Shown: positions 4,235-56,995, counted from the first letter of the stretch. The stretch: DNA of 64,000 nucleotides from Acidobacteriaceae bacterium (GCA_025462735.1 JAOAPC010000001.1:1-64000), one strand, 5' to 3'. Translations and numbers: made by a program. The notes: generated by a model not told the origin, from the letters alone.

Positions 4235-6010
4235 TTACGGTATAGGCATAGTTGGTAACGGAGGGACATCACAGATCGCCGATGCACAGGGCGGCAGCGG
4301 CGGAGTCATGATAAGGAAGTCATTCCCTTGAGTCTTAGCCGATCCACCTTTCATGCACTGACCGGTGAAAGTATCCCTGTTCGGATAGGGTTTGGTGAAA
4401 CCATCCGTGAGTGTTTGCAAGAACGCCACGATCTGGTTCTCCTCCTTGTCCGTCAGGCCGAGCATACCGGTCGTCATGTCGAGGTTGTTCTTGACCTCGG
4501 GCATGGGCCAGCAATCTACCTTTTCAGTTGTTCCTTTCGGGCAGTGCCCCGACGTCACCGGAAAGGCGAATTTTTTCACGTCGCGCGTGTTGTAGAAGTG
4601 AACGAGTTGTTTCAGGCTCTTGATATAGCCGTTGTGGAAGAACTCCTTCTGGAAGTATGGCCCTGGCGCTTCGGTGGTGGGGCACTTGTTCGGTGCCATA
4701 GCCACATTGCGCGCCGAGGATACTTGCATTTGGCCGTCGCTAGTCGGTGCGTGTTTTCTCCAGCTTTGGTTCGGGCTGGCCCAGGAACCGAAACCGCTTC
4801 TGAGGAATGTTCCCAATCCCAAATCTCTGTAGGCGAAGCCATAGGGATTGCCGGTGAACCCGAGAGAATCCGGCTTGGTCTGATAATAGAAAGCATCCCT
4901 GGGATTCAGAGGTAGGCCTTCGTTGGCCGACCCGAAGCAAGTGAACAGAGGCGTCACGAGGGCTTCGTCACTGGTGTCGGTCAGATTCGAGGTCAGTGTG
5001 GTTCCTCTGCCGTCCAGGTGGCAGGAGTTGCAGTTTCCCTTACCCCGGAACAGCTTGTAACCGGCCATCTCGTCTGCTGACAGGGTGGCGTTCCCGGCCA
5101 GGAACGCGTCAAATTTCGACGTGAAAGCGCTGACCTGCACCGACTGCTCGTACGCGTCCAGGGCCTGCCCCCAGTGGTCATAAATAGTATTTGACTTGAT
5201 GCGGTCTTCCGCACTCAGCTTAACCGGTTCGACATTCGATCCGAAAATCTTAGCTCCTCCCGGGGTTTCGCAGATCTCCTCAGTATCGGGCGGGAATTTG
5301 ATGTCGAACGAGCCTTTGCCCCAAACTTCTTCAAAGAGGGGCCGGTACACAGCCTTGGACAGCTTGAAGGCGATGCAAGCAGTATCCGGATTGCCCATTT
5401 CTTGAGTGTCCACCGGAGGACCCTGCGCCTGATTGGCGTCAGGATTTCTTAGCAGATATCCGGTCGCGCGTGAATCCCAGAAGTTTCCACCAAAGAAAAG
5501 GCCCTGGGTTTCGTTGAACTGGAGTACCGGGAAGAACGGGGCGTACGGGTATCTTTGGGCTGACCGTTTGCCCGCACGAAAGTGGGCCGTTCCAGGATAC
5601 GCAATCATGGTCAGATTGACTGACGGTATCGGTCCGCTAAAGGCTACATACGGCATGTGACAAGAGGCGCACGCCGAATTTTTTCCGGGTGACATGTTCT
5701 TGTCATAATTCATCAGCTCGCCGAGTGTTTCTACTGCCTCAGTTCCTGTGTTCGCAAGGATTGGCGGCTGGTTTGTCACCGTCGGAGGCTTTAAGGACTT
5801 CCACCGTCCGATCGCTCTGGCTTCGATGAAATCTATCTCGCGCAGGACCCTCTTCAGCTCTGAATTTATATCGGGCGGCAGAATCCCCGGCGGGTATGGG
5901 TCGTAAATTTTCGGTGCCGGGTCTTCAGGCTCTTGGCCTTTAGTAGTCATCACGACCCCCAGTACCATTAAGCACACTACGGACAGAATAGCCAGAGTTG
6001 TACGCTGCAT
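4235..6010 (-). CDS. Di-haem cytochrome c family protein, tandem copy 2
   Basis: 591 residues, paralogue of the product of 1910-3739. Same signal peptide; CASCH at 114-118 and CNSCH at 327-331. Shared blocks include GGNFWD, PVDTQEMG, ACIAF, WGKGSFDIKFPP and EFFHNGYIKSLKQLVHFY. The deposited changes are concentrated between and after the haem domains (for example a deletion of NGTNVG-type sequence and a different 270-320 segment). The ribosome site AAAGGGA precedes the ATG. It likely works as a periplasmic electron-transfer or peroxidase enzyme; the two copies may differ in partner or expression. It lies 323 nt downstream of the rraA-like gene, so it may have its own promoter. Confidence 0.85.
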   Translation of the reverse strand: MQRTTLAILSVVCLMVLGVVMTTKGQEPEDPAPKIYDPYPPGILPPDINSELKRVLREIDFIEARAIGRWKSLKPPTVTNQPPILANTGTEAVETLGELMNYDKNMSPGKNSACASCHMPYVAFSGPIPSVNLTMIAYPGTAHFRAGKRSAQRYPYAPFFPVLQFNETQGLFFGGNFWDSRATGYLLRNPDANQAQGPPVDTQEMGNPDTACIAFKLSKAVYRPLFEEVWGKGSFDIKFPPDTEEICETPGGAKIFGSNVEPVKLSAEDRIKSNTIYDHWGQALDAYEQSVQVSAFTSKFDAFLAGNATLSADEMAGYKLFRGKGNCNSCHLDGRGTTLTSNLTDTSDEALVTPLFTCFGSANEGLPLNPRDAFYYQTKPDSLGFTGNPYGFAYRDLGLGTFLRSGFGSWASPNQSWRKHAPTSDGQMQVSSARNVAMAPNKCPTTEAPGPYFQKEFFHNGYIKSLKQLVHFYNTRDVKKFAFPVTSGHCPKGTTEKVDCWPMPEVKNNLDMTTGMLGLTDKEENQIVAFLQTLTDGFTKPYPNRDTFTGQCMKGGSAKTQGNDFLIMTPPLPPCASAICDVPPLPTMPIP

Positions 6011-6333: not shown

Positions 6334-7110
6334 TTACAGGCGACCGAACTTTTTGACCGCCTCTTCAATCGACTTGAGTTTCTCGATATAGGCATACATC
6401 GAATGCTCTTTGAAATCCATTTCCTGGGCGGTAACCAGGACCTCAGCGGCACGCGCGCGCGGCACAATCGCTACTCCATCCGAATCTGCGACAACAATAT
6501 CTCCGGCACTCACTGAAGCCCCGTCGCAGATGACCGGAATATTTGCTCCGGCGAAGCGATAATGTCCGACCGACGTAGAAGGCACGCTTCCCAAAGCAAA
6601 CACTGGGAACCCGATTTTCTGCAGATACGCTGTATCGCGCACTCCGCCGTCAATCACGGCACCGGAAAAATTTCTGGCGTGCATCGCAGTTCCCATCAAT
6701 CCGCCCATGCCAGCTATGTCGGCGCCGTCTTCGACCACCATCACATACACGGAGTTAGGCGCGCCTTGATCGATGGCCGCCAGCATGCCATCAAGTGCCT
6801 TGGGATCGTGGTTCTCTTCTTTCTTTAACTTGACCGTAACCGCGAACCCGGCGAACCGCGACGTAAAAATCGGACGCATCCGATGCGACAGATAAATTCG
6901 CTGCCCGGCGACTTTTTCCATCGCATCAGAGACCGACGCTACCTCCACGTGACGATACCCATCAAGCAGCGTTGCGTCAGAAGTTACATCAGCAGGGCGT
7001 GAGAACGCTGGAGTGATCTCAAAAATAGCGACCGTTGAAATGGCTGCTGCCAAGCTGATTGTCGCGATGAGAATCCGCGATCTTGAAGCCCCACGTAATA
7101 TGCTGTTCAT
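6334..7110 (-). CDS. Exported RraA-like (HMG/CHA aldolase family) protein
   Basis: 258 residues. AAGGAG sits 6 nt before the ATG. Residues 1-38 are an N-terminal hydrophobic export signal, which is unusual for this normally cytosolic family. The RraA/HMG-aldolase fold is marked by GAVIDGGVRD, whose Arg-Asp pair binds the metal and substrate in 4-hydroxy-4-methyl-2-oxoglutarate aldolases, and by the downstream GDIVVADSDGVAIVP. A divalent-metal aldolase or oxaloacetate-decarboxylase-type reaction on a short 2-oxoacid is likely; a regulatory RraA role in RNase E inhibition is unlikely outside the cytoplasm. It starts 35 nt after the polysaccharide deacetylase and is likely in its operon. Confidence 0.75.
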   Translation of the reverse strand: MNSILRGASRSRILIATISLAAAISTVAIFEITPAFSRPADVTSDATLLDGYRHVEVASVSDAMEKVAGQRIYLSHRMRPIFTSRFAGFAVTVKLKKEENHDPKALDGMLAAIDQGAPNSVYVMVVEDGADIAGMGGLMGTAMHARNFSGAVIDGGVRDTAYLQKIGFPVFALGSVPSTSVGHYRFAGANIPVICDGASVSAGDIVVADSDGVAIVPRARAAEVLVTAQEMDFKEHSMYAYIEKLKSIEEAVKKFGRL

Positions 7111-7145
7111 CTCGTGCTCCTTCGGTACGCCTGATGTGAGAAGCG

Positions 7146-8120
7146 TTATGGCTGTGTCGGCGGGTGCGGTAGCGCGTTCGATTTATCGATCACCCATTGC
7201 GGAAAGACCGGAGTATGTTGCGGCGGGTGACCGCGTGTGATGGCCCAATGATCAAGCCAGCTCGTTCCTTCTTCGCCGACGTATTCGTCCGGCAGGCTGT
7301 AGGCGGAGTCGCTGAGCGCATCCTGCAGCGTGACCAATTGGTAGCCGCGCTTGCGGAGCAAATCCAATAACTCGCCAATGTGGTCCGCTTCCAGCCAATT
7401 GGCATGCAGAAGTATGATTTGCTTCGGTTCATATCCGATCAGGTCCTTGGAGAACTTTTCGTAGTAATCGAAAACCGCGCTTGTATAAGAAAGATATGAA
7501 CTGACAAGCTGCTGCTCGAGTGCGGTATCGCCGCGCCGCCGAGCGTCGTCGTACACGCCGGCATACATCCAATCCCACGCATCCATGGTGATAGGAGCAA
7601 TGTGATAGCCGCGGTCCACGAGAAAAGCTTCAGCCTGGCGGCGGGTCTCGAGATCGCGGCCGGTGTCAAGATAAGGATGCCGGAAGTAGCGCAGCTTCAT
7701 GTTGTGCTGTGCCAGCAACATCCGAGTGACCGTCTCGCCGCGGATGATTTCCTCTTCCCACTCTTTTAATCCCACGCGATTCAACGAAGCATGGCTGAAG
7801 GTGTGGTTGCCGAGATCAAATCCGTCGTCCAGCCACATGCTGAGCGCTTTGATGCGCTCATCTACTTCACCAAACTTGTAGAGCTTGCGCTCGTTCACAA
7901 AACCAACAGCGGGGATTTTTTGATCGCGCAAAGTTCCCAGCAGCTTGGTTGTCATTTCAATGATTTCGCTTCCGGTCATCGAACTCGCGCCACCCGCGGG
8001 AAGATCATCGATTGTGATTGCAATTCCACGCTGGGCAGGATTCTGCGCTTGAAGCGGCATCGCAGTCGCAAACAGCAATGAAAGCAAGATGAAATCATAC
8101 GTCGCGAATACTCGCTTCAT
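7146..8120 (-). CDS. Exported polysaccharide deacetylase (NodB/CE4 family)
   Basis: 324 residues from the ATG at 8120, which has GGAG 7 nt upstream; an in-frame start at 8183 would add 21 residues ahead of the signal peptide. The signal is MKRVFATYDF followed by a hydrophobic run ending LQAQ. NodB motifs are recognisable: AITIDDLP (motif 1, catalytic Asp pair), NHTFSH (motif 2, metal-binding His), RHPYLDTG (motif 3) and ILLHAN (motif 5). The enzyme should remove N- or O-acetyl groups from a glycan, or act on a related amide, outside the cytoplasm. It sits in a leftward unit with PLP, RidA and PQQ enzymes, so a substrate carrying acetylated amino sugars is plausible but unproven. Confidence 0.85.
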   Translation of the reverse strand: MKRVFATYDFILLSLLFATAMPLQAQNPAQRGIAITIDDLPAGGASSMTGSEIIEMTTKLLGTLRDQKIPAVGFVNERKLYKFGEVDERIKALSMWLDDGFDLGNHTFSHASLNRVGLKEWEEEIIRGETVTRMLLAQHNMKLRYFRHPYLDTGRDLETRRQAEAFLVDRGYHIAPITMDAWDWMYAGVYDDARRRGDTALEQQLVSSYLSYTSAVFDYYEKFSKDLIGYEPKQIILLHANWLEADHIGELLDLLRKRGYQLVTLQDALSDSAYSLPDEYVGEEGTSWLDHWAITRGHPPQHTPVFPQWVIDKSNALPHPPTQP

Positions 8121-8229
8121 TGATGTGCTCCGTAATTTGGTCGAAAGTGGCTCGGACCGAAACTTGCCTACCTCATCCTTCACGGTGCTTCGCGGAAAAA
8201 TCGCACCAACTCACTGAGTCTTGATCCCG

Positions 8230-9483
8230 TTACGCCGAATGCTGCCGCAGTACTTTGGACAACTGCTCCGCAATAATCTGGTCCTCGCCGGGTTGCAGCA
8301 TGAACGAATTCATCGCCAGGCCGGGGCGCCCTTCGCCTCCGCCAATCACAATCGACGGCTGCCCGCTGCGCAGTATCTGCGAGGCTTGCGAAGGTGTTAG
8401 TGAGATCCGTGCATCCCACGTGATCTGCATATGCGGAACATGGTTCGCAACCTCTGGAATAAAAAACGAAGTGCTTACGCCTGGAATTTTCGTGATTTGC
8501 GCCGAAATATTTTCCAAGCGTTGCTGCCACTCTCTCGCCAGCGCGTCATGATCTTCGCTCAGGTATAGTTCCAACGCCTTCAGCATCCCCACAATCTCTT
8601 CCTTGCCCACTTTTTGACCGCGTCCTAGCGTGTCCTCGTAAGGACTGTTATTGAGCAGCGCGTAATGCACTAACTCTTCGCGTCCGATCAGCATTCCCGC
8701 GCACTGCGGCCCCCGCAGCGCTTTGCCGCCGCTGAACGTGATCAGGTCATAGCCCATGTTGGCGTAATCCCATAGATGCGACACCGGAGGTGTATCAGCC
8801 GCGGCATCATTCATGCACGGAACGTTGTGCTGCTTGGCCAACTTCGGCCACTCGTCGACTTTTATCTGTCCCGCGGAGTTGGCGAAATTCGTGAAGTGCA
8901 TCATCGCAGTCCGCTCACTCACAGCCCGCCGCAACTGCTCGTGCGTCTCGATTTCGATGAGCTTTACGCCGGGTCCTCTCAGTTGGTGATCAAACGGATT
9001 GCGGTGCGTTTTCTGGATGATCACCTCAGACTTCATCCCCGTCAGATCAGGCAATTGCTTGATCAGGCTCTCATTGTCGCCGGTAAGAATGCCCGCCAGC
9101 CCCGACTGTATCGCTCCCGCCGCGCCCGAAGTGACAATCGCGCTGTAGCCTTGCGGCAGCTTGAGCATTTGCGAGATGCGCTTGCCCGCGGCCACCTCCA
9201 GCTCTGGAATACTCACGAAGTGCCGCGCTGCTTGCGCCATCACAGCTTCGACTTCCGGCCGTATGAGTGATCCTCCGAGAGTGGTCATGGTTCCTTCGCC
9301 GTTGATCACTGTGGTGACGCCCAATTCCTGGTACGGATTTCCAGATTGGCCAAGGCCTGCTGCCGCGGCACTTGGCTCTGATGCAGGCGCTTTCGTTGCA
9401 AACAGCTTTCGCGGTGCAGCAATCGCGGCTGCCACCGCACCAAGAGTTCCCAGGAACCCGCGGCGGCTCGAAGTCGAATTCAT
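8230..9483 (-). CDS. Tat-exported SelA-like PLP-dependent enzyme
   Basis: 417 residues. It starts with a twin-arginine signal (SSRRGFLGTL then an Ala-rich hydrophobic run, about residues 1-30), so the folded enzyme with cofactor would be exported. The body resembles the selenocysteine synthase/D-glucosaminate-6-phosphate ammonia-lyase branch of fold-type I PLP enzymes: NGEGTMTTLGGSL near the N-terminus, VTSGAAGAI, and TFSGGKALRGPQCAGML containing the presumed PLP lysine. True SelA is decameric, cytosolic and has no signal, so this is not selA. Beta-elimination or ammonia loss from an amino acid or amino sugar acid is the likely chemistry. It is 15 nt from the upstream RidA gene, a family that removes enamine/imine products of such lyases. 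Confidence 0.75.
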   Translation of the reverse strand: MNSTSSRRGFLGTLGAVAAAIAAPRKLFATKAPASEPSAAAAGLGQSGNPYQELGVTTVINGEGTMTTLGGSLIRPEVEAVMAQAARHFVSIPELEVAAGKRISQMLKLPQGYSAIVTSGAAGAIQSGLAGILTGDNESLIKQLPDLTGMKSEVIIQKTHRNPFDHQLRGPGVKLIEIETHEQLRRAVSERTAMMHFTNFANSAGQIKVDEWPKLAKQHNVPCMNDAAADTPPVSHLWDYANMGYDLITFSGGKALRGPQCAGMLIGREELVHYALLNNSPYEDTLGRGQKVGKEEIVGMLKALELYLSEDHDALAREWQQRLENISAQITKIPGVSTSFFIPEVANHVPHMQITWDARISLTPSQASQILRSGQPSIVIGGGEGRPGLAMNSFMLQPGEDQIIAEQLSKVLRQHSA

Positions 9484-9498
9484 ATTGGCTCTCCCGAT

Positions 9499-10008
9499 CT
9501 ATTTTTTAGATAACGCGGCAATGCAATTAATTTCCACCAGCGAGTTTCCTGGAAGCGCCGCAACCGCGACCGTGGTACGCGCCGGACCTCCATGCGGGAA
9601 ATAGGTCTTAAACACTTTGTTCATCCCGTCGTAGTAATCGATTTTTGCCAAAAAAACTGTAAGCTGGACCACGTCGTCCAGATTCGAGCCGGCAGCTTCG
9701 ACAAGTTTCTTGATGTTGTCCATTACCTTCGTTGTATGCGCGGCGATCTCCCACGAATCAGCCGATCCGCTATCGTGGGCCCCAACTCCGGCAATATAGG
9801 CCAAGCCATCGTGGACTACGATCGGCGAGATCATGGAATTGCCCTCAGCTGGCTTTCCTTCATCGTTCAGTTTGCGGACACCTTCGTCTTTGTGTGAGGA
9901 CCTTCTGGCTTCCGAGGGCTTGGAAAGCAACGCAGCCAGTCCAAACGCGGAGAATACCGGCGCCAGAAGGCTGGCGAAATTTCTACGACTCAATGGAGTT
10001 GAATTCAT
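9499..10008 (-). CDS. Tat-exported RidA-family enamine/imine deaminase
   Basis: 169 residues; canonical RidA is about 130, and the excess is a twin-arginine leader (LSRRNFASLL followed by a hydrophobic segment, residues 1-35). RidA features include IAYIAGVGAHD-like N-terminal strands, VVQLTVFLAKI, and GGPARTTVAVAALPGNSLVEI with the Arg and Glu used to bind the imine carboxylate. It hydrolyses reactive 2-aminoacrylate-type intermediates to 2-oxoacids and ammonia. A strong AAGGAG lies before the ATG. Being exported next to an exported PLP lyase strongly suggests the two act in sequence in the periplasm. Family membership is clear; substrate is not known. Confidence 0.85.
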   Translation of the reverse strand: MNSTPLSRRNFASLLAPVFSAFGLAALLSKPSEARRSSHKDEGVRKLNDEGKPAEGNSMISPIVVHDGLAYIAGVGAHDSGSADSWEIAAHTTKVMDNIKKLVEAAGSNLDDVVQLTVFLAKIDYYDGMNKVFKTYFPHGGPARTTVAVAALPGNSLVEINCIAALSKK

Positions 10009-10044
10009 AAAGCTCCTTTTTATCGAAATGAATTGCTGAAGTTC

Positions 10045-11679
10045 TTACTGCGGTAGAGCAAAACTAAAAAGGTCGCTCCCTGCTGCGACTGCCACATACT
10101 GCTTGCCGCTAACTGCATAACTCATTGGCGAAGCACTCATGTCCTGGCCCGTATTGAAATGCCATAACGGCTTGGCGTCGCGGGCGTCCACCGCTTCAAA
10201 CGATTGCGCATCATCTCCGAAAAAGAGCAGCCCTCCACCTGTGCTCATGGTCCCGCCGGTCGAGTGCCCTCCGCCAACTTGCGGATATTTCCACGCAAAG
10301 GTTCCTGTGGCGACATTGAACGCCAGCAGTATCTTTTGAGAATTCTCGCCTGGAATATGCTTCACTCCGGTCGAATAGAACTCCTTGCCCGGTGTGAAGC
10401 GTTGCGGCTCAGGCGCCGAAAAGTAAGTTTGGCATTGCTCCAATGCCATGAAATAAAACAGTTGCGTCGATTCGTTATACGATGGCGCAAACCAGTTGGT
10501 AGCGCCAGAGTATCCTGGGCATACCTTTGTCCCAGCGGGTGTGGGCTCTACCTCGGTCCGGATCGGGCGTCCCTTCGGATCAATCCCTTGTGCCCAGTTC
10601 AGTTTTTCCACGAACCGCGTCCCCGAAAGAAATTCGCCGGTACTCCGATCCAGAACGTAGATAAACCCGTTGCGATTTGCTTCGATCAACAATTTTCGCG
10701 ATAGACCTTTATAAGCCGCATCGATCAGCACTGGCGTTTCGGTCGCGTCGTAATCGAAAAGATCATGCGGCGTAAATTGGAAATACCATTTCAGCTTGCC
10801 AGTCTCCGGATCGAGCGCCAACACACAGTCGGTATACAAGTCGTCTCCCGGACGCACGCTGCCTTCGAAATCCGGTGCGGGATTGCTGGTTCCCCAGAAC
10901 AACGTTTTCAACTCGGGGTCATAAGTTCCCGGCATCCACGTTGTGCCGCCGCCGTGCAAATACAAATCCCCTGGCCAACTATTAGACCCAACTTCTCCGG
11001 GCGCCGGAATAGTCCAGAATCGCCAGACGAGTTTGCCACTCTCCGCGTCATACGCCGCAACGAATCCTCGCACTCCGTCGTCGCCACCCGAGGTCCCAAC
11101 TATGATCTTGTCGTTCACTACCAACGGGGCGCTGGTCGCCCCATAGTTGCTGTTCCAATCCGCGTACGCCACATCCCAGATTAGGTTTCCAGAACGCGCA
11201 TCCAGGCACAGCAAATGCGCGTTGTCCGTCTCGCGATAAACGCGATTGTGCCAGACTCCAACTCCACGGCTAATGTGCCGCGACGCATCATCAATCAACC
11301 CTTCTGAGTTGGGACGCGTATAGTGCCACACCGTCCGTCCAGTTTGTGCGTCGAGCGCAAACGTGTCGTTTGCCGAGGTCACGAACATGGTCCCATTCAC
11401 CACTACGGGAGTGACTTCCAGATGGTCTGAATTGCGTGAATGAAATATCCACTCGGCGCGCAACTGGTTCGCATTTTTCACGTTGATCTGGGACAACGGG
11501 CTGTAGCGCCGCCCGGAGTAGTCTCCGTTGTAAGAGAGCCAGTTGTCTGTCATCGGCGCAAGCAGGTCCTGCGTGCGAACATTGATCTCGCTCTGCACCG
11601 CGCCGTTTTCCTGTGTACGCGCAACGGCTGCCCACAATACCAATGCGAGCCGCACGCAGACCGGTACGCGTCGTATCAA
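10045..11679 (-). CDS. PQQ-dependent alcohol dehydrogenase-type quinoprotein
   Basis: 544 residues, beginning at a TTG directly after the TAG of the upstream gene. A short signal (VRLALVLWAAVA) is followed by an eight-bladed propeller with repeated blade signatures such as ALDAQTGRTVW, AYDAESGKLVW, ALDPETGKLKW and FNVATGTFAW. The HDLFDYDATE segment (309-311) carries the Asp pair of the active site of methanol/ethanol-type dehydrogenases. The vicinal Cys-Cys that often sits over PQQ is absent: the corresponding region reads SRGVGVWHNR. No cytochrome domain is fused, so electrons must go to a separate cytochrome c, several of which are encoded nearby. It oxidises an alcohol or sugar in the periplasm; substrate unknown. 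Confidence 0.85.
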   Translation of the reverse strand: MIRRVPVCVRLALVLWAAVARTQENGAVQSEINVRTQDLLAPMTDNWLSYNGDYSGRRYSPLSQINVKNANQLRAEWIFHSRNSDHLEVTPVVVNGTMFVTSANDTFALDAQTGRTVWHYTRPNSEGLIDDASRHISRGVGVWHNRVYRETDNAHLLCLDARSGNLIWDVAYADWNSNYGATSAPLVVNDKIIVGTSGGDDGVRGFVAAYDAESGKLVWRFWTIPAPGEVGSNSWPGDLYLHGGGTTWMPGTYDPELKTLFWGTSNPAPDFEGSVRPGDDLYTDCVLALDPETGKLKWYFQFTPHDLFDYDATETPVLIDAAYKGLSRKLLIEANRNGFIYVLDRSTGEFLSGTRFVEKLNWAQGIDPKGRPIRTEVEPTPAGTKVCPGYSGATNWFAPSYNESTQLFYFMALEQCQTYFSAPEPQRFTPGKEFYSTGVKHIPGENSQKILLAFNVATGTFAWKYPQVGGGHSTGGTMSTGGGLLFFGDDAQSFEAVDARDAKPLWHFNTGQDMSASPMSYAVSGKQYVAVAAGSDLFSFALPQ

Positions 11680-13179
11680 CTAGAAATTCCTCGCGCCAGA
11701 TTGAATCGCCGCCTCGCCCACACTGCCGCGGTCTTTGTCCTGGTCATCCACCAGATGAATCGCAACTCGCTTTGGCGTGCCTTGCATTTTGATTTCCTGC
11801 CGCAATTGCACCGCCGCTTGTGGCGTGACCGAAATCAAATCGACGGATTTAATCTCCGCACCATTTCCATCTTCAAAATGCGCGACCAGTTTGCCGGGGA
11901 AGAATACCCCGATCGAAGCAGAAATCATAACCCCATCTGACGTGGCCGAGGCCGCGATCCGGCCGGCAATCACTCCGGCGTCTGCCACATTCGTGATTCG
12001 TCCCGCAATCCGCGTAGGGAACCAGTTCGTTTGCATCTCGTAAGTCTCACCGGGCTTCAGTTCCGCCATGGGGCTATTCACTTCGGCTTCCATGTAATAC
12101 GGCGCCTCATCCGGCGTCGCATCGCGCAACACCGGCTTCCCACTGGAATCGATATTGACCGCCGCGCCGTTCTTGTAAAAGATCAACGAAGCCTTTCCCG
12201 GATATTCCGCGCGCTCTTGGGGGTAGAATCTCTCCACCATCGCATATTGGTTTGCAGCGTCATCTACCGCCAGCCAGCCCGCAGTCGAGTCCAGCCAAAC
12301 TTCATTTTCCAGATAAAGCCAGTGGAGCAAGAACATCCCGTCCTCGGTAGAGAACGATGGATCGTCGGCCAAACCGGAGCGCACCTGATAGCCGTTGGAA
12401 TACGCGCTCTGGGGATTGAGAGGTGCGAGCGCCCAGAAATCGCGATTGTACTCCTGCGGATTCCTCCGGTCCGCAGTGTCGTATTGCGTAACCGTCTGCA
12501 TCGACCATCGAATCGTTCGGCTTACTGCGTTCTTCATAATGGAGCGAAAAGAAATTTCGGGCGAATTCGCGCCGATCATGATCTCACGCGAATACTGCAA
12601 TCCGGTTCGCATGTCCGCAGGCCCGTCGAGACGAACGCTGCATGTCGACCCATGCGAAATGGTTTTCAGTTGATATTCGCCATCATCCAGTTCGTCTGCG
12701 ATCGGACCCGGCCAGTGTTGGCCGTCGTCTTTGCCCTCCGGTAATGGCCAGATCTTGTCGCCTCCATAGTTAAACCATTTGCCATTCGCAGCCGATGGAG
12801 GAAAATACTTGCCCTTATATTTTGGATTCACGAACAGGTATGCGTGCCCGGCGAAGGTGACCTGCATCAATCGCCCGCCGAGTTGGGGCACGATCGTCAA
12901 CTGCAACCAATCATTCGACATTTGCCCCGCCGCCCAACCCTCAAAAACAGTGGAACGAATTTCGCATGGGAGGTGCAGTTCCGCGCCCGTTGTTTGGGCC
13001 GTCACAAGAGTTTCAAAGCAAAGCAGGCTTACCGTCAAAAACCATGCCGTGCGTCTCACCGGTTTCGCCAAACTTTCCAGAGTGAAGATGCCCGTGCGCG
13101 GCCTCCTTCCGAATTCGAACAGAAGCCGTTGCTCGCTTGAAAAACGAATTTCATGCTTGACAGTAGATTCCGCGCTCAT
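11680..13179 (-). CDS. Exported DUF4380-like protein (galactose-mutarotase-type fold)
   Basis: 499 residues if the ATG at 13179 is used. A hydrophobic signal lies at about 45-60 (RRTAWFLTVSLLCF), so a later TTG/GTG start near residue 35-42 is also possible; no good ribosome site settles it. After the signal, LQLTIVPQLGGRLMQV and NPKYKGKYFPP followed by NYGGDKIWPLPEG match the DUF4380/aldose-epimerase-like group. These large beta-sandwich proteins bind sugars, but catalytic His residues of mutarotase are not evident here. It is the first gene of the leftward operon and abuts the PQQ dehydrogenase with no gap. A carbohydrate-binding or lyase-accessory role is inferred. Confidence 0.65.
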   Translation of the reverse strand: MSAESTVKHEIRFSSEQRLLFEFGRRPRTGIFTLESLAKPVRRTAWFLTVSLLCFETLVTAQTTGAELHLPCEIRSTVFEGWAAGQMSNDWLQLTIVPQLGGRLMQVTFAGHAYLFVNPKYKGKYFPPSAANGKWFNYGGDKIWPLPEGKDDGQHWPGPIADELDDGEYQLKTISHGSTCSVRLDGPADMRTGLQYSREIMIGANSPEISFRSIMKNAVSRTIRWSMQTVTQYDTADRRNPQEYNRDFWALAPLNPQSAYSNGYQVRSGLADDPSFSTEDGMFLLHWLYLENEVWLDSTAGWLAVDDAANQYAMVERFYPQERAEYPGKASLIFYKNGAAVNIDSSGKPVLRDATPDEAPYYMEAEVNSPMAELKPGETYEMQTNWFPTRIAGRITNVADAGVIAGRIAASATSDGVMISASIGVFFPGKLVAHFEDGNGAEIKSVDLISVTPQAAVQLRQEIKMQGTPKRVAIHLVDDQDKDRGSVGEAAIQSGARNF

Positions 13180-13185
13180 CCACTA

Positions 13186-13199
13186 TTAACACGTTTTAA
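13186..13199. promoter_or_regulatory. Possible LacI-type operator in the divergent promoter region
   Basis: TTAACACGTTTTAA is a 12/14 palindrome with a central CG, the general form of LacI/GalR-family sites. It lies in the 190-bp gap between the leftward DUF4380-PQQ operon and the rightward TonB receptor. A single site this short can occur by chance, and no LacI gene is in the window. Confidence 0.3.
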
Positions 13200-13372
13200 T
13201 GCAGGCTTCTATCGTAGTACGCTTCATAATTTTGTCAATGAATCATGGCAATGAAGTTGCAGCGGCAGGGAAGTCTTAAGTGGCGTTGTTGTTCTCAATA
13301 GCAGTGGAATTCCTGAATATAAGAATCTACTCGGTAATTTCGAAAGCAGAATTTTTCCGTTGGGGGGCTACT

Positions 13373-16300
13373 ATGCGGCGGTTTAGATTTCTATCCAGCG
13401 CGCTCGGCGCGATTTTACTTAGTTCGATTAGCCTCTGGGCTAGCATTAACGGCAGCATATCCGGGGTCGTCACCGACTCGAGCGGCGCCGTGGTTAGTGG
13501 CGCAACCGTAACCGCCACCAATACACAGACTGGCGTAAAGACCACACTCAAGACCGACTCCAAGGGTTTCTACAATTTTCCCGCTCTCCAGATCGGGAAC
13601 TATACGGTGGATGTCCAGGAACAAGGTTTCAAGACCGAGAGCCGCACCGGCTTGGTCATCGACGCAAACTCCGCCGTGCGCGCCGACTTCACGCTGCAGA
13701 TCGGCCAGATAATCGAGAAGGTCACAGTTGCCAGCGAAGCCGCCCACGTTGAAACCGAGAGCACTCAGATGGGCGAAGTGATCACCGCTAAAACCATCAC
13801 GGCAGTGCCGCTGAACGGACGCGCCTACACTGATTTACTCGCGTTGCAGCCAGGCGTGTCACCTTATACGGCCAGCGACACCGGAACCCCGGATCTCAGC
13901 GGCCGCAACGTTGACGGTGGCTTGAATCCCGGGAACCAGTCGGTGAATGGCCAACGAGAGACCGCCAACAGCTTCATGGTCAACGGTTCCACGGTCGAAG
14001 AAGGACGAAACAACGGAGCTGCCATTATTCCGAACCTTGACTCGATCGAGGAATTTCGCATTATCACCAATAATTTTGACGCCGAATATGGAAATTACAG
14101 CGGTGGGCAAGTCAACGTTGTTACGAAGTCGGGTACCAATGGGTTCCACGGAAGTGGCTTTGACTTCCTGCGCAACACCTCGTTCGACGCCAAAAATTAT
14201 TTCTCGCTTTCGAGCGATCCGACTCCGGTATTTCGCCAGAACATGTTCGGCGGCACCTTCGGCGGGCCATTGGTAAAAAATAAAACATTCTTTTTTATCG
14301 ATTACCAGGGGACGCGCCAGACGCGGGCGCCGTTAGTGAATAGGACAATGCCATCGTTGCTCAATTTTGGTGGTAGTTTTGATCCTGCAAGTCCCTTCAG
14401 CAACGGCACTGATGCAAACAACAATCCTATCGCCGCAACCGTCGGTGGGCAGGCCTTCGCGGACATAATTGCCGGACGGCAAGGACTGGCGCCGGGTACA
14501 TTTAGCGACGGTGAACCGTACTACTACACTGCTGCAACTATCGACCCTACAACGATTGATCCGAACACCGGGGCCGGAACACCTTATGGTTCGACCTGCA
14601 CCACGTCATCGCAGTGCGTGTTCCCGAACGGGATCATTCCGCAGGACGCATGGTCGCCAGTAGCTACAGCCGTGGTCAATCTTGGCCTTATTCCCACGCC
14701 CAACAACGGCAACAACTTCACAAGTTCCGCTTTCGCCAGAAAGTTGCGTGACGATAAAGGCGGAATTCGCGTCGATCAAAACACGCGCTTTGGCAATTTC
14801 TTTGCTTACTACTTCAACGACGATTACAGCCTGAACGACCCGATTCCAGATGGCGGAGCCAGCGTTCCGGCGCAAAAGTTCGCCTACACCGCCCTCACGA
14901 CAGGCCGCGCACAGCTCATCAACCTCGGACACACCAAGAATTTTGGATATTACTCGGTGAACGAAATCCGGCTGAGCTATGTGCGCAATGCGATCAATCT
15001 GGCACAACCCGAAGGCGGAGAGGGACCGAACTACAGTCTTTCCAAGTTGGGCTTTGTTACGCCGTGGGGACCGTCAGGCGGAATCAGTCCCATAGCGCCT
15101 AAGCTGGAAGGCGTGCCGTTTTTCGGCTTTAACAACTTCTCGATTGGTGTCCCAACCGTCAGCACACGCCAGTACAACAACTCATTTCAGGTTCTCGATA
15201 ACTTCACCAGAGTTATCGGGACTCACACGGTGAAATTTGGTGGCCAATTTCACTATGACCAGATCGACGAAAGAAATCTGGCTGCCGAAAATGGCCAATA
15301 CAGTTTCAGCGGCAGCGAGACCGGAATTGATTTCGCGGACTTCCTCATCGGCGCACCTGACAGCCTCACGCAGGCAAGTCCGCAGCTACTCGATTCGCGC
15401 AGCAAGTACTACGCACTATTTGGACAGGACAGCTGGCGGGTCACGCAAAATCTTGTCTTCAACTATGGCTTGCGCTGGGAAGCCAGCATGCCCTGGTATG
15501 ACACGCAAAACAAAACCGAAACTATCATTCCCGGCAAGCAGTCGGTGAAATTCCCCGGCGCGCCTCTTGGCTACGTAGTTGCCGGCGACCCCGGCGTTCC
15601 GCGCACACTCGGCCCAACGCGGTGGCATAATTTCTCTCCGCGTGTCGGTCTTGCTTATTCGCCGAGTTCATCTTCGGGTCTGATGGGCAAACTGTTTGGT
15701 GGTCCGGGCCACACCAGTATTCGAGTTGGTGCTGGCCTCTATTACACGTCGATTGAGGATCTCTCACAGTTCCTGGAGGTCGGCGATCCGCCTTACGGCC
15801 TCTATTATGGGAGCGCCGCCCCGCCGCTCCTGGAGAAACCTTACATCACGCGGTCCAGCGGTGTTAACGTGGGCCAGCGTTTTCCGCTGCCCTTCCCGTC
15901 GACAAATGTGTCTCCGAGCCATCCTGACACCACCTTCCCGTGGGGTCAGGTCGAACCTCTCTCCTATGACTGGTCGTTCGATAATCGCAACAAGCTGCCA
16001 TATTCCGAGCACTACGAACTATCCATTCAACGCCAGATCGGTCCCAACACCGTCGTCACGGTCAGCTACGTCGGCAACCAAGGCCATCGGCTGGCTACGG
16101 GCGTAGAAGCGAACCCCGCGAATCAGGCATTGTGCCTCTTTTTGAGCGATCCAAATAACCTCGGACCTGGCAGCGCGCCTCCCTGCGGTCAATTCAGCGA
16201 GACACCTCAATTCACCTATGATCCGGTAACGAAGACCGGGACTAGCACCCCCTGGATAACCGCCACCGGACAAGTCATACCTTCGGTTCGCCCGCTGGGG

Positions 16301-17083
16301 CCGCTTTTCGATACCAACCCTCACGAGTCAACGGTCGCAAATTCGCGCTACAACTCACTACAGGCTGGGTTGACCCATCGCGCAGGATCTTTAACGCTGG
16401 GCGCAGGCTATACCTACAGCAAATGCATGGACAATGCGTCCGGACTCGAAGATTCCACTAACCCGTTCGATCCGCGGCGCAGCATCGCCCTCTGCAATTT
16501 CGACCTTACTCACAGTTTTGTTCTCAGTTACGACTGGGCCTTGCCGTTTGACAAGATGGTTGGCTCGGGTTGGATGAAGACGCTCGCCAGCGGCTGGACT
16601 CTTTCCGGTATCACGCGTTTTGCCACCGGCCTCCCTGTCAGTCTTAGCGAAGGCGACGACGCGTCATTGATTGGCGCCAACGCGGCCGGTCTTGATGTCC
16701 CCGACTTTGCGGGCGGGGGACAGGTTTTGGCTAACACCAATCCGCGACACCAGGAGCAGACGTATTTCAACGTATCGCTTTTCAGTCCGGAGCAACTCGG
16801 GCACCTGGGCAATTCGCGTCGGCGATTTTTTCACGGGCCAGGGCTTAATAATTGGGATATGACATTGTCCAAGGTCACTAGAATTACGGAAAGCAAGGAA
16901 CTCGAACTGCGAGTTGAAGCCTTCAATCTGTTCAATCACGCGCAGTTCAGCAATCCCGATGGCGGAATAGATTCCGGCCCGCCGAATTTTGTGAACGGCG
17001 TAAATCTGGGCGGCACATTCGGCTTGGTCACTTCCGCCCGCGATCCCCGCATTATGCAGTTGGGCGCAAGGTTCACGTTCTAG
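13373..17083 (+). CDS. TonB-dependent receptor with N-terminal carboxypeptidase-regulatory domain
   Basis: About 1236 residues from the ATG at 13373 (GGGGGG 5 nt upstream); an upstream in-frame start would place 31 residues before the signal peptide. Signal MRRFRFLSSALGAILLSSIS; then a CarboxypepD_reg-like beta-sandwich (about 25-105, GVVTDSSGAVVSGATVTAT); a plug region (GEVITAKTITAVPLNGR, FRIITNNFDAEYGNYSGGQV); and a long outer-membrane barrel with alternating aromatic strands, ending LGARFTF. The terminal Phe is typical of outer-membrane proteins. This is the Acidobacteria-type oligosaccharide receptor resembling SusC. It diverges from the exported oxidation operon and is followed by a cytochrome and a lactonase, so it probably takes up or concentrates the substrate of that locus. 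Confidence 0.9.
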   Translation: MRRFRFLSSALGAILLSSISLWASINGSISGVVTDSSGAVVSGATVTATNTQTGVKTTLKTDSKGFYNFPALQIGNYTVDVQEQGFKTESRTGLVIDANSAVRADFTLQIGQIIEKVTVASEAAHVETESTQMGEVITAKTITAVPLNGRAYTDLLALQPGVSPYTASDTGTPDLSGRNVDGGLNPGNQSVNGQRETANSFMVNGSTVEEGRNNGAAIIPNLDSIEEFRIITNNFDAEYGNYSGGQVNVVTKSGTNGFHGSGFDFLRNTSFDAKNYFSLSSDPTPVFRQNMFGGTFGGPLVKNKTFFFIDYQGTRQTRAPLVNRTMPSLLNFGGSFDPASPFSNGTDANNNPIAATVGGQAFADIIAGRQGLAPGTFSDGEPYYYTAATIDPTTIDPNTGAGTPYGSTCTTSSQCVFPNGIIPQDAWSPVATAVVNLGLIPTPNNGNNFTSSAFARKLRDDKGGIRVDQNTRFGNFFAYYFNDDYSLNDPIPDGGASVPAQKFAYTALTTGRAQLINLGHTKNFGYYSVNEIRLSYVRNAINLAQPEGGEGPNYSLSKLGFVTPWGPSGGISPIAPKLEGVPFFGFNNFSIGVPTVSTRQYNNSFQVLDNFTRVIGTHTVKFGGQFHYDQIDERNLAAENGQYSFSGSETGIDFADFLIGAPDSLTQASPQLLDSRSKYYALFGQDSWRVTQNLVFNYGLRWEASMPWYDTQNKTETIIPGKQSVKFPGAPLGYVVAGDPGVPRTLGPTRWHNFSPRVGLAYSPSSSSGLMGKLFGGPGHTSIRVGAGLYYTSIEDLSQFLEVGDPPYGLYYGSAAPPLLEKPYITRSSGVNVGQRFPLPFPSTNVSPSHPDTTFPWGQVEPLSYDWSFDNRNKLPYSEHYELSIQRQIGPNTVVTVSYVGNQGHRLATGVEANPANQALCLFLSDPNNLGPGSAPPCGQFSETPQFTYDPVTKTGTSTPWITATGQVIPSVRPLGPLFDTNPHESTVANSRYNSLQAGLTHRAGSLTLGAGYTYSKCMDNASGLEDSTNPFDPRRSIALCNFDLTHSFVLSYDWALPFDKMVGSGWMKTLASGWTLSGITRFATGLPVSLSEGDDASLIGANAAGLDVPDFAGGGQVLANTNPRHQEQTYFNVSLFSPEQLGHLGNSRRRFFHGPGLNNWDMTLSKVTRITESKELELRVEAFNLFNHAQFSNPDGGIDSGPPNFVNGVNLGGTFGLVTSARDPRIMQLGARFTF

Positions 17084-17130
17084 GCAGCCTTTGGTGAAAG
17101 CTGAAAGATAGCTTGCGGCACTTCTCCGAA

Positions 17131-17970
17131 ATGAAGTTCGAGAACATTATGCGCAAGCCCGCTTTGCTGGCAGCCTTGCTCATCTTCTTTGCTCCACCGC
17201 TCGCGCATTCGCAGCAGCACGCGCCTACTTCTCGCCAACCTGCTCACTCCGCGCGGCACTCCAGCGGCCAGCAACTCTTTGCAACTACCTGTGCCGCCTG
17301 TCACGGGCTCGACGGTATGGGCAGTGAGCGAGCGCCGAATATCGTTACCAACCCGCAAGTTCAGAAACTCTCGGCTGCGGAGATTTCTCGCATCGTGTCT
17401 GCTGGTGTGCCGGGAACCGGAATGCCCGCATTCCAGCGTTTGGGAAACCCGGCAATCGCCTCCGTAGTGGCTTACCTCAGAGGCCTGCAAGGCAAGAACC
17501 GTCCCGTGCCACTACCGGGAGATCCTCAGCGCGGTGAGGCGCTTTTCTTTGGCAGCGCCCAATGTTCAACCTGCCACATGGCTGCCGGCAAGGGCGGGTA
17601 CATCGGCCCCGATCTCAGCACTTACGGCCAGACGCATACTGCCGAAAAAATCAAGTCCGCCATCACCAATCCCGCAGAACGAGACTCGATCAAGACCATG
17701 GTGACCGCGACTGCCACGAACGGCGACCGTTACCATGGGATCATTCGCAACGAGGATAATTTCTCACTACAGCTGCAATCCACGGATGGCGCATTTCACT
17801 TCCTTTCGAAAGCCGACGTCAAAACGATCGACCGGTCCCATGGCTCAATCATGCCTTCCGATTACGCATCTCGACTCACCCAACCTCAGCTGAACGATAT
17901 AGTCAGTTATATGCTCAGCCTGAAAAAAAAATCCTTGCCCGGCGCCACTCCCCACACGGATGATGAATAG
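17131..17970 (+). CDS. Exported di-haem cytochrome c
   Basis: About 279 residues from the ATG at 17131 (ATG at 17149 or a TTG at 17113 are alternatives; no ribosome site decides). Signal around MRKPALLAALLIFF. Domain 1 carries CAACH with a later MPAF axial-Met motif; domain 2 carries CSTCH after the GDPQRGEALFFG pattern and then TATATNGDRYHGIIRNED, seen in Planctomycete/Acidobacteria haem-binding domain proteins. It likely accepts electrons from the PQQ dehydrogenase or passes them to the oxidase chain. It follows the TonB receptor by 47 nt, and its stop overlaps the upstream region of the SMP-30 gene. Confidence 0.85.
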   Translation: MKFENIMRKPALLAALLIFFAPPLAHSQQHAPTSRQPAHSARHSSGQQLFATTCAACHGLDGMGSERAPNIVTNPQVQKLSAAEISRIVSAGVPGTGMPAFQRLGNPAIASVVAYLRGLQGKNRPVPLPGDPQRGEALFFGSAQCSTCHMAAGKGGYIGPDLSTYGQTHTAEKIKSAITNPAERDSIKTMVTATATNGDRYHGIIRNEDNFSLQLQSTDGAFHFLSKADVKTIDRSHGSIMPSDYASRLTQPQLNDIVSYMLSLKKKSLPGATPHTDDE

Positions 17971-18004
17971 CTTTATGTCCGAAATTTTCTGTTTGAGAAA
18001 TGCA

Positions 18005-18970
18005 ATGAAGGTAATGAAGATAGTCATACTTGCCCCGCTAAGCTTGTTCCTGTTCGCAATATCGTCTCCGGTTTTCGCTCAGCAGGGCGCTCGCAAATTT
18101 GAACTTCAACCAATTTCGCCAAAATTCTCGACTCTGATCCCGCCTAACGCCAAGCTCGAAACCGTTGCCACCGGCTTCGGGTTCACCGAAGGCCCAGTAT
18201 GGGACCCGGCAGGATTCTTATATGTCAGCGACGAGGAAACGAATAAGATTTTCCGCGTCGATCTGAGGGACGGCCGAAAAGAAGAACTTATTTCTCTTGG
18301 CGACCCCGACGGCAACACCTACGACCGTCACGGCCGGCTGATCGATTGCGCCAGCGTATTGCGTGCCATCATCGCCGTTTCGAAAGATGGAAAATACAAA
18401 ATTCTGGCCGATCGCTTCGAAGGGAAAAAATTTAACAGCCCCAACGACGTAATTGTCGGCCCAGATGGTGCCCTCTATTTCACCGATCCCACTCTCGACT
18501 TGCCTAAGGGCCAAAACCAGGAGCTTCCGTTTCAGGGTGTCTTCCGCCTCGACAAAAATGGCAACGTTCGTTTGCTTACGAAAGAACTCACACAACCAAA
18601 CGGCCTGGCATTCTCTCCCGACGGCAAGAAATTCTATGTTGACGACAGCGAGCAAAGAAACATTCGGGTTTACGATGTTGCCTCGGACGGCTCGTTGACC
18701 AACGGCCGCATTTTCGGCGAGGAGCCGGGGGAGAAAAATGATGGCGTTCCCGACGGCATCAAGGTCGACCGTGATGGCAATCTATTCGTGACCGGTCCGA
18801 AAGGAATTTGGGTCTGGAGTCCCGACGGCACTCACCTCGGCACCATCGCCATGCCAGAACAACCGGTAAACCTCACTTGGGGAGGGGAAGACCTCCACAC
18901 CTTATATATAACCGCCACAACTTCCGTTTACCGCCTGCAAACCACTACTCACGGTTTCGTCTCTCATTGA
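18005..18970 (+). CDS. Exported SMP-30/gluconolactonase-family protein
   Basis: 321 residues from the ATG at 18005 (GAGA 7 nt upstream); an upstream ATG at 17960 overlaps the cytochrome gene. Signal MKIVILAPLSLFLF ending FAQQ. The six-bladed SMP-30 propeller is evident: TEGPVWDP (metal-binding Glu), NSPNDVIVGPDGALYFTDP, TQPNGLAFSPDGK and GVPDGIKVDRDGNLFVTG. These supply the Glu, Asn and Asp ligands of a divalent metal. The family hydrolyses aldonolactones such as those produced when a PQQ dehydrogenase oxidises a sugar, which fits this locus. Location is periplasmic. Confidence 0.85.
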   Translation: MKVMKIVILAPLSLFLFAISSPVFAQQGARKFELQPISPKFSTLIPPNAKLETVATGFGFTEGPVWDPAGFLYVSDEETNKIFRVDLRDGRKEELISLGDPDGNTYDRHGRLIDCASVLRAIIAVSKDGKYKILADRFEGKKFNSPNDVIVGPDGALYFTDPTLDLPKGQNQELPFQGVFRLDKNGNVRLLTKELTQPNGLAFSPDGKKFYVDDSEQRNIRVYDVASDGSLTNGRIFGEEPGEKNDGVPDGIKVDRDGNLFVTGPKGIWVWSPDGTHLGTIAMPEQPVNLTWGGEDLHTLYITATTSVYRLQTTTHGFVSH

Positions 18971-20574: not shown

Positions 20575-21966
20575 ATGAGTGAGCGCTTTGCCTTTTCCGA
20601 TCTGCGCGAACTTTTCGCCAAGGCCAACGAGGAGAAGTCTGGCGATCAATTGGCGGGAATCGCTGCCCGTTCCGAACGCGAACGAGTCGCAGCCAAGCGC
20701 CGCCTCGCCGATTTAACTTTGGGCGAAATTCTCCGGCAGCCGCTGATCTCCCCCGACGAAGACGACGTCACTCGCCTTGTCCTTGAAACATACGACCAGC
20801 AAGCATTTCAGCGCATTTGCAGCATGACCGTGGGCGAGTTCCGCGAATTCATCCTCACCGACTCGACCAGCGAAACCGAACTGCGCTCGATTCAGCGGGC
20901 CATCATCCCTGAAATCGCTGCAGCCGTTACCAAAATCATGAGCAATAAAGATCTCGTCATGGCTGCGGCGAGGTTCCGCAACATCACCCGCTGTCGCAAC
21001 ACCATGGGAGAGCGCGGTGTGTTGGGAATCCGTTTGCAGCCCAATCATCCTCGCGATGACGTCGGCGGCATCCTGCTCGCCACGTTCGAAGGTCTGCTCT
21101 ACGGCTGCGGTGACGCTGTTATCGGTATCAATCCCGCGACCGACTCGGTCGAGACCGTAAGTTCGATTTTGTCGGCGGTCAATCGCCTGGTAGAGATATA
21201 CAAAATCCCAACTCAGACCTGCTGTCTTGCGCACATTACAACTCAGCTTGCGGCTATGGAGCGCGGTGCCCCCGTGGATTTGCTTTTTCAGTCCATTGCC
21301 GGCACCGAGGCCGCGAATCGCAGCTTCGGGATTAGTTTGGAAATGTTGCGTGAGGGCCGCGAGCAAGTCCTCGAAAGTCACGGCCATCGTGACGTCGCGT
21401 GGCGAGGCAATAATGTCATGTACTTTGAAACCGGCCAGGGCAGTGCTCTCTCCGCGAACGCGCATCGCGGAGTTGATCAGCTTACACTTGAAGCCCGTGC
21501 CTACGGAGTCGCCCGCGTGTTCAACCCATTCCTGGTAAATAGTGTGGTCGGCTTCATCGGCCCCGAGTACCTATACGACGAACGCCAAATTATCCGCGCC
21601 GGACTCGAAGATCATTTCATGGGCAAACTCCTGGGATTGCCCATGGGATGCGACGTTTGCTACACCAACCACGCCGCCGCCGACCAGAACTCCGCCGACA
21701 ACCTTTTGCTCTTGCTGGCGGCGGCCGGTTGCAACTATTTCATGGGCGTGCCTTGCTCGGATGACGTGATGCTCAACTATCAATCCACCAGCTATCACGA
21801 CGCGCTCTCGGTAAGGCGCCTGTTTAATCAGCGGCCGGCTCCCGAGTTTCTCGCATGGCTGCAGAAGATGGGAATCTATCGCGATCTTGAACCAGCAATG
21901 CTCGACGCTCCCGCTAAACGCCAGTTGATGGAAGGCCTCGAATTGTCGATCGCGAGGGCTAAGTAA
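20575..21966 (+). CDS. eutB: Ethanolamine ammonia-lyase large subunit
   Basis: 463 residues, close to the 453 of E. coli EutB. Recognised by its continuous similarity to the TIM-barrel catalytic subunit: TVGEFREFIL, GIRLQPNHPRDDV, YGCGDAVIGINPATD, the GPEYLYDERQIIRAGLEDHFMG-like segment near residue 325-345 and GLPMGCDVCYTNHA. With EutC it forms the adenosylcobalamin-dependent enzyme that splits ethanolamine into acetaldehyde and ammonia. There are no eut shell-protein or reactivase genes around it, so it acts without a locally encoded microcompartment. eutC follows directly. Confidence 0.95.
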   Translation: MSERFAFSDLRELFAKANEEKSGDQLAGIAARSERERVAAKRRLADLTLGEILRQPLISPDEDDVTRLVLETYDQQAFQRICSMTVGEFREFILTDSTSETELRSIQRAIIPEIAAAVTKIMSNKDLVMAAARFRNITRCRNTMGERGVLGIRLQPNHPRDDVGGILLATFEGLLYGCGDAVIGINPATDSVETVSSILSAVNRLVEIYKIPTQTCCLAHITTQLAAMERGAPVDLLFQSIAGTEAANRSFGISLEMLREGREQVLESHGHRDVAWRGNNVMYFETGQGSALSANAHRGVDQLTLEARAYGVARVFNPFLVNSVVGFIGPEYLYDERQIIRAGLEDHFMGKLLGLPMGCDVCYTNHAAADQNSADNLLLLLAAAGCNYFMGVPCSDDVMLNYQSTSYHDALSVRRLFNQRPAPEFLAWLQKMGIYRDLEPAMLDAPAKRQLMEGLELSIARAK

Positions 21967-55697: not shown

Positions 55698-55711
55698 GTA
55701 CTTATGAAAGC

Positions 55712-56959: not shown

Positions 56960-56995
56960 GGGAACTCCTTGCGGTGGTCACCGCGGGGATTCGAT

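Follow-up and report, generated by a model that had tools for sequence, protein, structure and literature searches.

A block of nine genes at positions 6334-18970 of a 64,000-nucleotide stretch of DNA from Acidobacteriaceae bacterium (GCA_025462735.1, JAOAPC010000001.1:1-64000; hereafter the window) appears, on balance, to encode the oxidative breakdown of an amino sugar in the periplasm, in which C1 oxidation, lactone opening and ammonia elimination by a pyridoxal phosphate (PLP) enzyme would lead to 2-keto-3-deoxy-gluconate (KDG) and its import. A hexosamine, or the end of an oligosaccharide, would enter via a TonB receptor, be deacetylated where needed by a CE4 enzyme and be supplied as the right anomer by a mutarotase-fold DUF4380 protein. 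A quinoprotein would then oxidise C1, with electrons going to a di-haem cytochrome, and an SMP-30 protein would open the lactone to give a 2-amino-2-deoxy-aldonate, for example D-glucosaminate. From this unphosphorylated substrate, a Tat-exported DgaE-like PLP enzyme would eliminate water and release an enamine, to be converted by an exported RidA into a 2-keto-3-deoxy-aldonate (KDG) and ammonia. KDG would be imported by an ACS-family carrier of the major facilitator superfamily (MFS) and pass to a cytosolic KDG kinase and the 2-keto-3-deoxy-6-phosphogluconate (KDPG) aldolase Eda, and/or be cleaved in the periplasm by an RraA-like protein. We infer the substrate, the order and direction of the steps, the reactions and the lyase-RidA partnership from gene content, conservation, gene order, the pattern of export signals and residue differences.

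The block is conserved as a set in Acidobacteriota. Neighbourhoods of homologs within this phylum were collected by genome search and, separately, 80 named loci were obtained by scanning a single genome of each species; 66 of the 80 loci qualify as orthologous, with a SelA-like PLP enzyme (hereafter SelA) at least 60% identical. Near SelA in these 66 loci are found RidA (58), the quinoprotein (53), RraA (52), an MFS carrier (49), cytochrome c (49) and SMP-30 (34), followed by an IclR regulator (27), TonB (26), KDG kinase (16), DUF4380 (15), Eda (12) and NagB (11), all of these counts being lower bounds since many contigs are short. Where the locus is fully flanked (8 kb or more of sequence upstream and 4 kb or more downstream; n=36), cytochrome is present in 33, quinoprotein and RidA in 32 each, RraA in 30, MFS in 28 and SMP-30 in 21. 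The gene order is mostly fixed, with divergent SMP-30 and cytochrome genes on one side and then RraA-(IclR)-(DUF4380)-quinoprotein-RidA-SelA-MFS-KDG kinase-Eda. In the surroundings of ten distant SelA homologs (L194-L203, 42-48% identity, including planctomycete and verrucomicrobial ones), the core genes were not found, except for RidA in L202. Together with the 66 orthologous loci, this rules out chance adjacency. The first-pass annotation had named a lack of co-occurrence elsewhere as what would refute its idea of an uptake and oxidation locus; no such lack was observed, and its reading is supported in so far as the set is conserved, catabolic and for the most part exported, and combines oxidation of an aldose and hydrolysis of a lactone with links to amino sugars. 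The genome of Acidobacteriaceae bacterium KBS 96 is among those with the cluster (L165). One contig labelled Betaproteobacteria (L166) also has the cluster in the acidobacterial gene order, with SelA at 69% identity, and is probably mis-binned.

Within the window, all nine genes are intact according to open reading frames (ORFs) and profile libraries. Every gene named in the first-pass annotation is real, with a complete and open frame, and the count comes to about nine rather than twelve. The minus-strand arm runs from 13179 downward through DUF4380, quinoprotein, RidA, SelA, CE4 deacetylase and RraA, with gaps of 0, 36, 15, 46 and 35 bp; RraA, already listed as a member, does belong to the block, at 6334-7110, outside the 7146-18970 range first assigned to it. 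The plus-strand arm holds the TonB-type receptor, the di-haem cytochrome c and the SMP-30 lactonase. Start codons are those of the longest frames in the ORF list, and the true starts of DUF4380 and the TonB receptor are probably internal to these.

SelA (8230-9483, minus strand) is a Tat-exported PLP enzyme of the DgaE/SelA family. Its closest match is DgaE, aligned to the structures 7lc0 and 7lce over 366 residues (profile positions 49-414; E 3.5e-41 for 7lc0), and its matches to TIGR01437 (4e-49; 168 bits vs a curated cut-off of 385) and NF047797 (3e-39; 135 vs 600) score under the cut-offs. SelA proper, the L-seryl-tRNA(Sec) selenium transferase, was rejected as an assignment, at 48 bits vs an equivalog cut-off of 268. 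In DgaE, roles have been attributed to the PLP lysine, the carboxylate Arg226 and a modelled phosphate cluster of Arg301, Arg332 and Arg346, and His162/163 are strictly conserved in D-glucosaminate-6-phosphate ammonia-lyase (DGL; PMC9529869). In the profile alignment, the PLP Lys213 (counted in the chain; 217 in the text of PMC9529869) and Arg226 are both kept, as K254 and R268. All three phosphate-site arginines are lost, aligning to His (His351), Gly and Phe, as expected if the substrate is unphosphorylated and periplasmic. The histidine pair is likewise absent, the aligned stretch reading HFTNFANSAGQ. SelA is a predicted 2-amino-2-deoxy-aldonate ammonia-lyase.

The DgaE variant H163A keeps a high turnover and releases free enamine, and RidA was named by the authors as the kind of enzyme that clears such enamines (PMC9529869). 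The loss of the proton-donor histidine would thus explain the exported RidA (9499-10008, minus strand; PF01042 2e-24) that lies directly upstream of SelA, at a median distance of 42 bp among the RidA neighbours in the orthologous loci. This protein has the PF01042 fold and the catalytic-type arginine of archetypal RidA (Arg144, in ARTTV at 143), with a TIGR00004 score of 83 bits, under the cut-off of 106. Moreover, with PLP-dependent ammonia elimination of the DgaE type as the key chemistry, RidA and RraA are explained as successive steps. An undescribed amino-sugar pathway of this precise form, with an unphosphorylated substrate deaminated outside the cytoplasm by a histidine-less lyase that depends on exported RidA, and KDG imported, is proposed tentatively, at somewhat below an even chance. 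Elsewhere, an exported protein carrying three RidA domains in tandem (L057 3057-4361, minus strand; also L114, L163 and L176) adjoins a second Tat-exported SelA-like enzyme, often with a cupin, in an apparent parallel module.

With regard to export, inspection by eye gave Tat-type signals for SelA (MNSTSSRRGFLGTL) and RidA (SRRNFASLL) and Sec-type signals for the remaining genes of the block, in agreement with the earlier statement that nearly all carry one or the other. In a simple pattern test, which is not a trained predictor and is uninformative for Eda and IclR, the Tat motif is retained in 61 of 63 SelA and 46 of 49 RidA orthologs; hydrophobic N-regions are present on the RraA, quinoprotein, SMP-30 and cytochrome orthologs, and KDG kinase orthologs have no export signal. 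The compartment boundary therefore coincides with the transporter. An all-exported pathway, as first envisaged, is not what the relatives display, since many of them add a cytoplasmic-membrane MFS transporter and a cytosolic KDG kinase and KDPG aldolase.

The oxidative steps would begin with the exported quinoprotein (10045-11679, minus strand; PF01011 2.5e-84), predicted to oxidise an aldose at C1. In alignment with 1kv9, the pyrroloquinoline quinone (PQQ) pocket of PQQ-dependent alcohol dehydrogenases (stacking Trp, calcium-ligand Asn and Glu, catalytic Asp, Arg/Lys and a vicinal Cys pair) is mostly kept. Residues W248, N266, D309 and R336 are invariant in all nine aligned orthologs, whereas Asp takes the place of the calcium-site Glu and there is no vicinal Cys pair. 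The exported di-haem cytochrome c (17113-17970, plus strand; PF00034, TIGR02603; CxxCH at 60 and 151) is its predicted electron acceptor. The exported SMP-30 protein (17960-18970, plus strand; PF08450 6e-51) is of gluconolactonase type, with the metal-site motifs TEGPVW, NSPND, PNGLAF and PDGI, and matches the gluconolactonases 3e5z and 3dr2 in the PDB. DUF4380 (11680-13179, minus strand) falls just under the Pfam cut-off; its Foldseek match to GalM 4bze (E 2.6e-9, TMt 0.59) indicates a galactose-mutarotase fold, which would suit an aldose oxidised at C1, and the protein is a predicted aldose 1-epimerase with an accessory role. Substrate uptake is the predicted function of the TonB-dependent outer-membrane receptor (13280-17083, plus strand; CarboxypepD_reg/OMP_b-brl_4, PF25183 3e-175), for which the corresponding cluster in another genome of the genus (L096) encodes a 75% identical ortholog. 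The window also contains a second, haem-bearing quinoprotein alcohol dehydrogenase (32064-34469, minus strand), next to which lies a radical SAM protein (34719-36869).

The oxidase genes are divided between two divergent units, which could mean that the block joins two functionally separate groups sharing only a regulon: quinoprotein, cytochrome and SMP-30, making aldonates for respiration, and the exported PLP/RidA/RraA group, serving some other purpose. In genus g4, a related module consists of MFS, an amidohydrolase, TonB, RraA (about 60-67%), SelA, a Tat-exported RidA and a second SelA-like enzyme, and no quinoprotein, cytochrome or SMP-30 was detected nearby. Such a separation nonetheless seems quite improbable, given that the quinoprotein lies near RidA-SelA in 53 of the 66 loci, nearly always upstream and on the same strand. 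The g4 module suggests that lyase, RidA and RraA form a stable core to which substrate can be supplied otherwise.

The likely product is indicated by the genes that relatives add downstream, namely a D-galactonate/ACS-type MFS carrier, a pfkB kinase that scores best with KDG kinase models, and Eda, which point to a 2-keto-3-deoxy-aldonate. Wherever they occur (49, 16 and 12 loci, respectively), they lie on the SelA side and strand, with one MFS exception. In the source genome, which is about 97% complete, an MFS ortholog (66-67%) is located at C1:188437 beside an FAA-hydrolase, and a KDG kinase (68%) adjoins Eda (49%) at C11. No close ortholog of the cluster IclR was found there (best match 28%), nor a NagB-type deaminase, the only PF01182 protein being a 6-phosphogluconolactonase and SIS-domain deaminases not having been tested.

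Several observations weigh against the amino-sugar route. No gene fixes the sugar, and KDG kinase and Eda serve uronates and aldonates equally; these two genes are linked to SelA in a minority of loci and sit in a separate cluster of the source genome, and the window lacks the MFS, IclR and NagB genes that are linked to the cluster in its relatives. RraA would be redundant alongside MFS, KDG kinase and Eda, and the alignment at His162/163 sits beside a gap. Furthermore, the best curated match of the quinoprotein, under cut-off, is TIGR04528, 'acido-empty-quinoprotein group A', a family named 'empty', so that the label 'PQQ dehydrogenase' of the first-pass annotation is uncertain and PQQ is unproven. 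PqqE over cut-off was not found in the source genome and is present in one of eight genomes in the genus, and one survey confines PqqU in Acidobacteria to Vicinamibacteria (PMC12124388). PQQ may arrive by diffusion, or the quinoprotein may use something else.

The regulator, too, leaves room for another substrate, as the IclR protein of the relatives scores best with BhcR (beta-hydroxyaspartate), with a narrow lead over KdgR. The pathway could then serve another beta-hydroxy alpha-amino acid (for instance 3-hydroxyaspartate, D-threonine or N-acyl-D-amino acids), from which the PLP enzyme would eliminate ammonia, RidA would clear the enamine and RraA would cleave or decarboxylate the 2-keto acid, with the quinoprotein oxidising an unrelated alcohol. 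Amino acids are substrates of SelA/DgaE-fold enzymes, 4-hydroxy-2-oxo acids are cleaved by RraA-family members, and the g4 module has an amidohydrolase where the CE4 enzyme would be, although amidohydrolase Pfam names do not fix the substrate. We regard this alternative as possible but unlikely, because a sugar acid is indicated by the proteins linked in the loci, namely KDG kinase, Eda, the lactonase, the mutarotase-fold protein, NagB and glycoside hydrolase (GH) proteins.

The exported RraA-like protein (6334-7110, minus strand; PF03737 4e-34) has as its best PDB match 3noj, a 4-carboxy-4-hydroxy-2-oxoadipate (CHA) aldolase. The catalytic Arg-Asp (VRD) of 4-hydroxy-4-methyl-2-oxoglutarate (HMG)/CHA aldolases is present and aligned, as GGVRD at 155-159, and the curated cut-offs are not reached. 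It is predicted to be a class II pyruvate aldolase or a dehydratase/decarboxylase and probably acts on a 2-keto-3-deoxy acid. A further count places it near SelA in 49 of the 66 orthologous loci. In three other genomes, more distant exported homologs (about 50%) overlap or lie near exported proteins of the enolase superfamily (MR_MLE), a superfamily of acid-sugar dehydratases. RraA thus travels with two candidate makers of 2-keto-3-deoxy acids, SelA here and MR_MLE elsewhere. An overlap of exported enolase-superfamily and RraA genes is seen at L082 7070-9071 and L083 1116-3249 and suggests another exported sugar-acid route in Acidobacteriota. Activity of an RraA-like enzyme on 2-keto-3-deoxy-glucarate (KDGR) has been published (PMC8563752).

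Relatives carry amino-sugar markers. A gene of the glucosamine-6-phosphate-deaminase (NagB) type is nearby in 11 orthologous loci. Also nearby are GHb (10 loci) and GHa (5 loci), two exported proteins that bear CBM32-like domains and weakly resemble GH39, and their CBM32 parts best match chitosanase carbohydrate-binding modules in the PDB; a structure model of the GH39-like partner was too poor (pLDDT 44) and was not used. The Sec-exported CE4 polysaccharide/oligosaccharide deacetylase (7146-8183, minus strand; PF01522) adjoins SelA in the window, has intact TIDD, HTFSH and RHPY motifs and matches N-acetylglucosamine (GlcNAc) deacetylases in the PDB. Its orthologs lie beside GH39-like/CBM32 proteins in several genomes, and only two of the 66 relatives have it at the SelA locus. 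The original proposal, in which an acetylated amino sugar is taken up and processed wholly in the periplasm by a PQQ enzyme with the deacetylase as a central step, is therefore very improbable: amino-sugar markers do accompany the cluster, but the deacetylase is peripheral, the later steps are cytosolic in many relatives and PQQ is unproven.

Other neighbours of the block were rejected as members. MauG-type di-haem peroxidases, FecR and EutBC were matched at none of the 80 loci of relatives, and the adjacent di-haem genes at 1910-3739 and 4235-6010 are not conserved with the cluster. These two minus-strand genes lie in tandem and encode MauG/MbnH-like di-haem proteins whose N-termini are nearly identical. 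EutB and EutC (ethanolamine ammonia-lyase) adjoin the cluster at 20575-22770 (plus strand), a linkage not kept in relatives. Further along, at 54393-57988 (minus strand), adjoining lactate-racemase N-domain, Gfo/Idh/MocA and sugar-isomerase-like genes perhaps form another sugar catabolic set.

Acidobacteriota abound in soil and are difficult to culture; amino sugars from microbial and fungal necromass are a major pool of organic nitrogen there. If the proposed route is correct, these bacteria take ammonia off amino sugars in the periplasm, where the electrons join the respiratory chain, and the exported PLP, RidA and RraA enzymes that recur across the phylum have a specific job. It would also offer a clean test of why DgaE retains its proton-donor histidine since, where this is lost, RidA accompanies the enzyme.

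The steps are known individually, and an all-exported version would be new. No paper describing an exported RidA/PLP pathway or periplasmic glucosaminate was found in open-licence PMC text, to which the search was limited, and the novelty is thus provisional. In periplasmic glucose/gluconate oxidation of the Pseudomonas type, which relies on a quinoprotein glucose dehydrogenase and a gluconolactonase, C1 is likewise oxidised outside the cytoplasm, electrons reach the respiratory chain and a keto acid is then imported; here, by contrast, periplasmic deamination would come next and the quinoprotein is of the alcohol-dehydrogenase type. The DgaE system (PMC9529869) likewise relies on a PLP lyase from this family, which has the catalytic Lys and the carboxylate Arg, and makes a 2-keto-3-deoxy sugar acid, with KDPG aldolase downstream. 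That system is cytosolic and acts on a substrate phosphorylated by the phosphotransferase system, whereas the enzyme described here is Tat-exported, lacks the phosphate-site arginines and His162/163, has a RidA partner and would precede the kinase step. The Natrarchaeobius chitinase clusters, with their predicted GlcNAc pathway (PMC12343721), similarly combine a deacetylase, a glucose dehydrogenase, a DgaE homolog and a RutC/RidA-family protein; that pathway, itself a prediction, is haloarchaeal, has an unknown kinase drawn ahead of the lyase and comes with no description of lyase or RidA export. Lastly, FlDet, the RraA-like KDGR dehydratase/decarboxylase of Flavobacterium (PMC8563752), shows that an RraA-family enzyme can act on a 2-keto-3-deoxy sugar acid, but its substrate is a hexarate and it was reported with alginate catabolism, without a PLP lyase.

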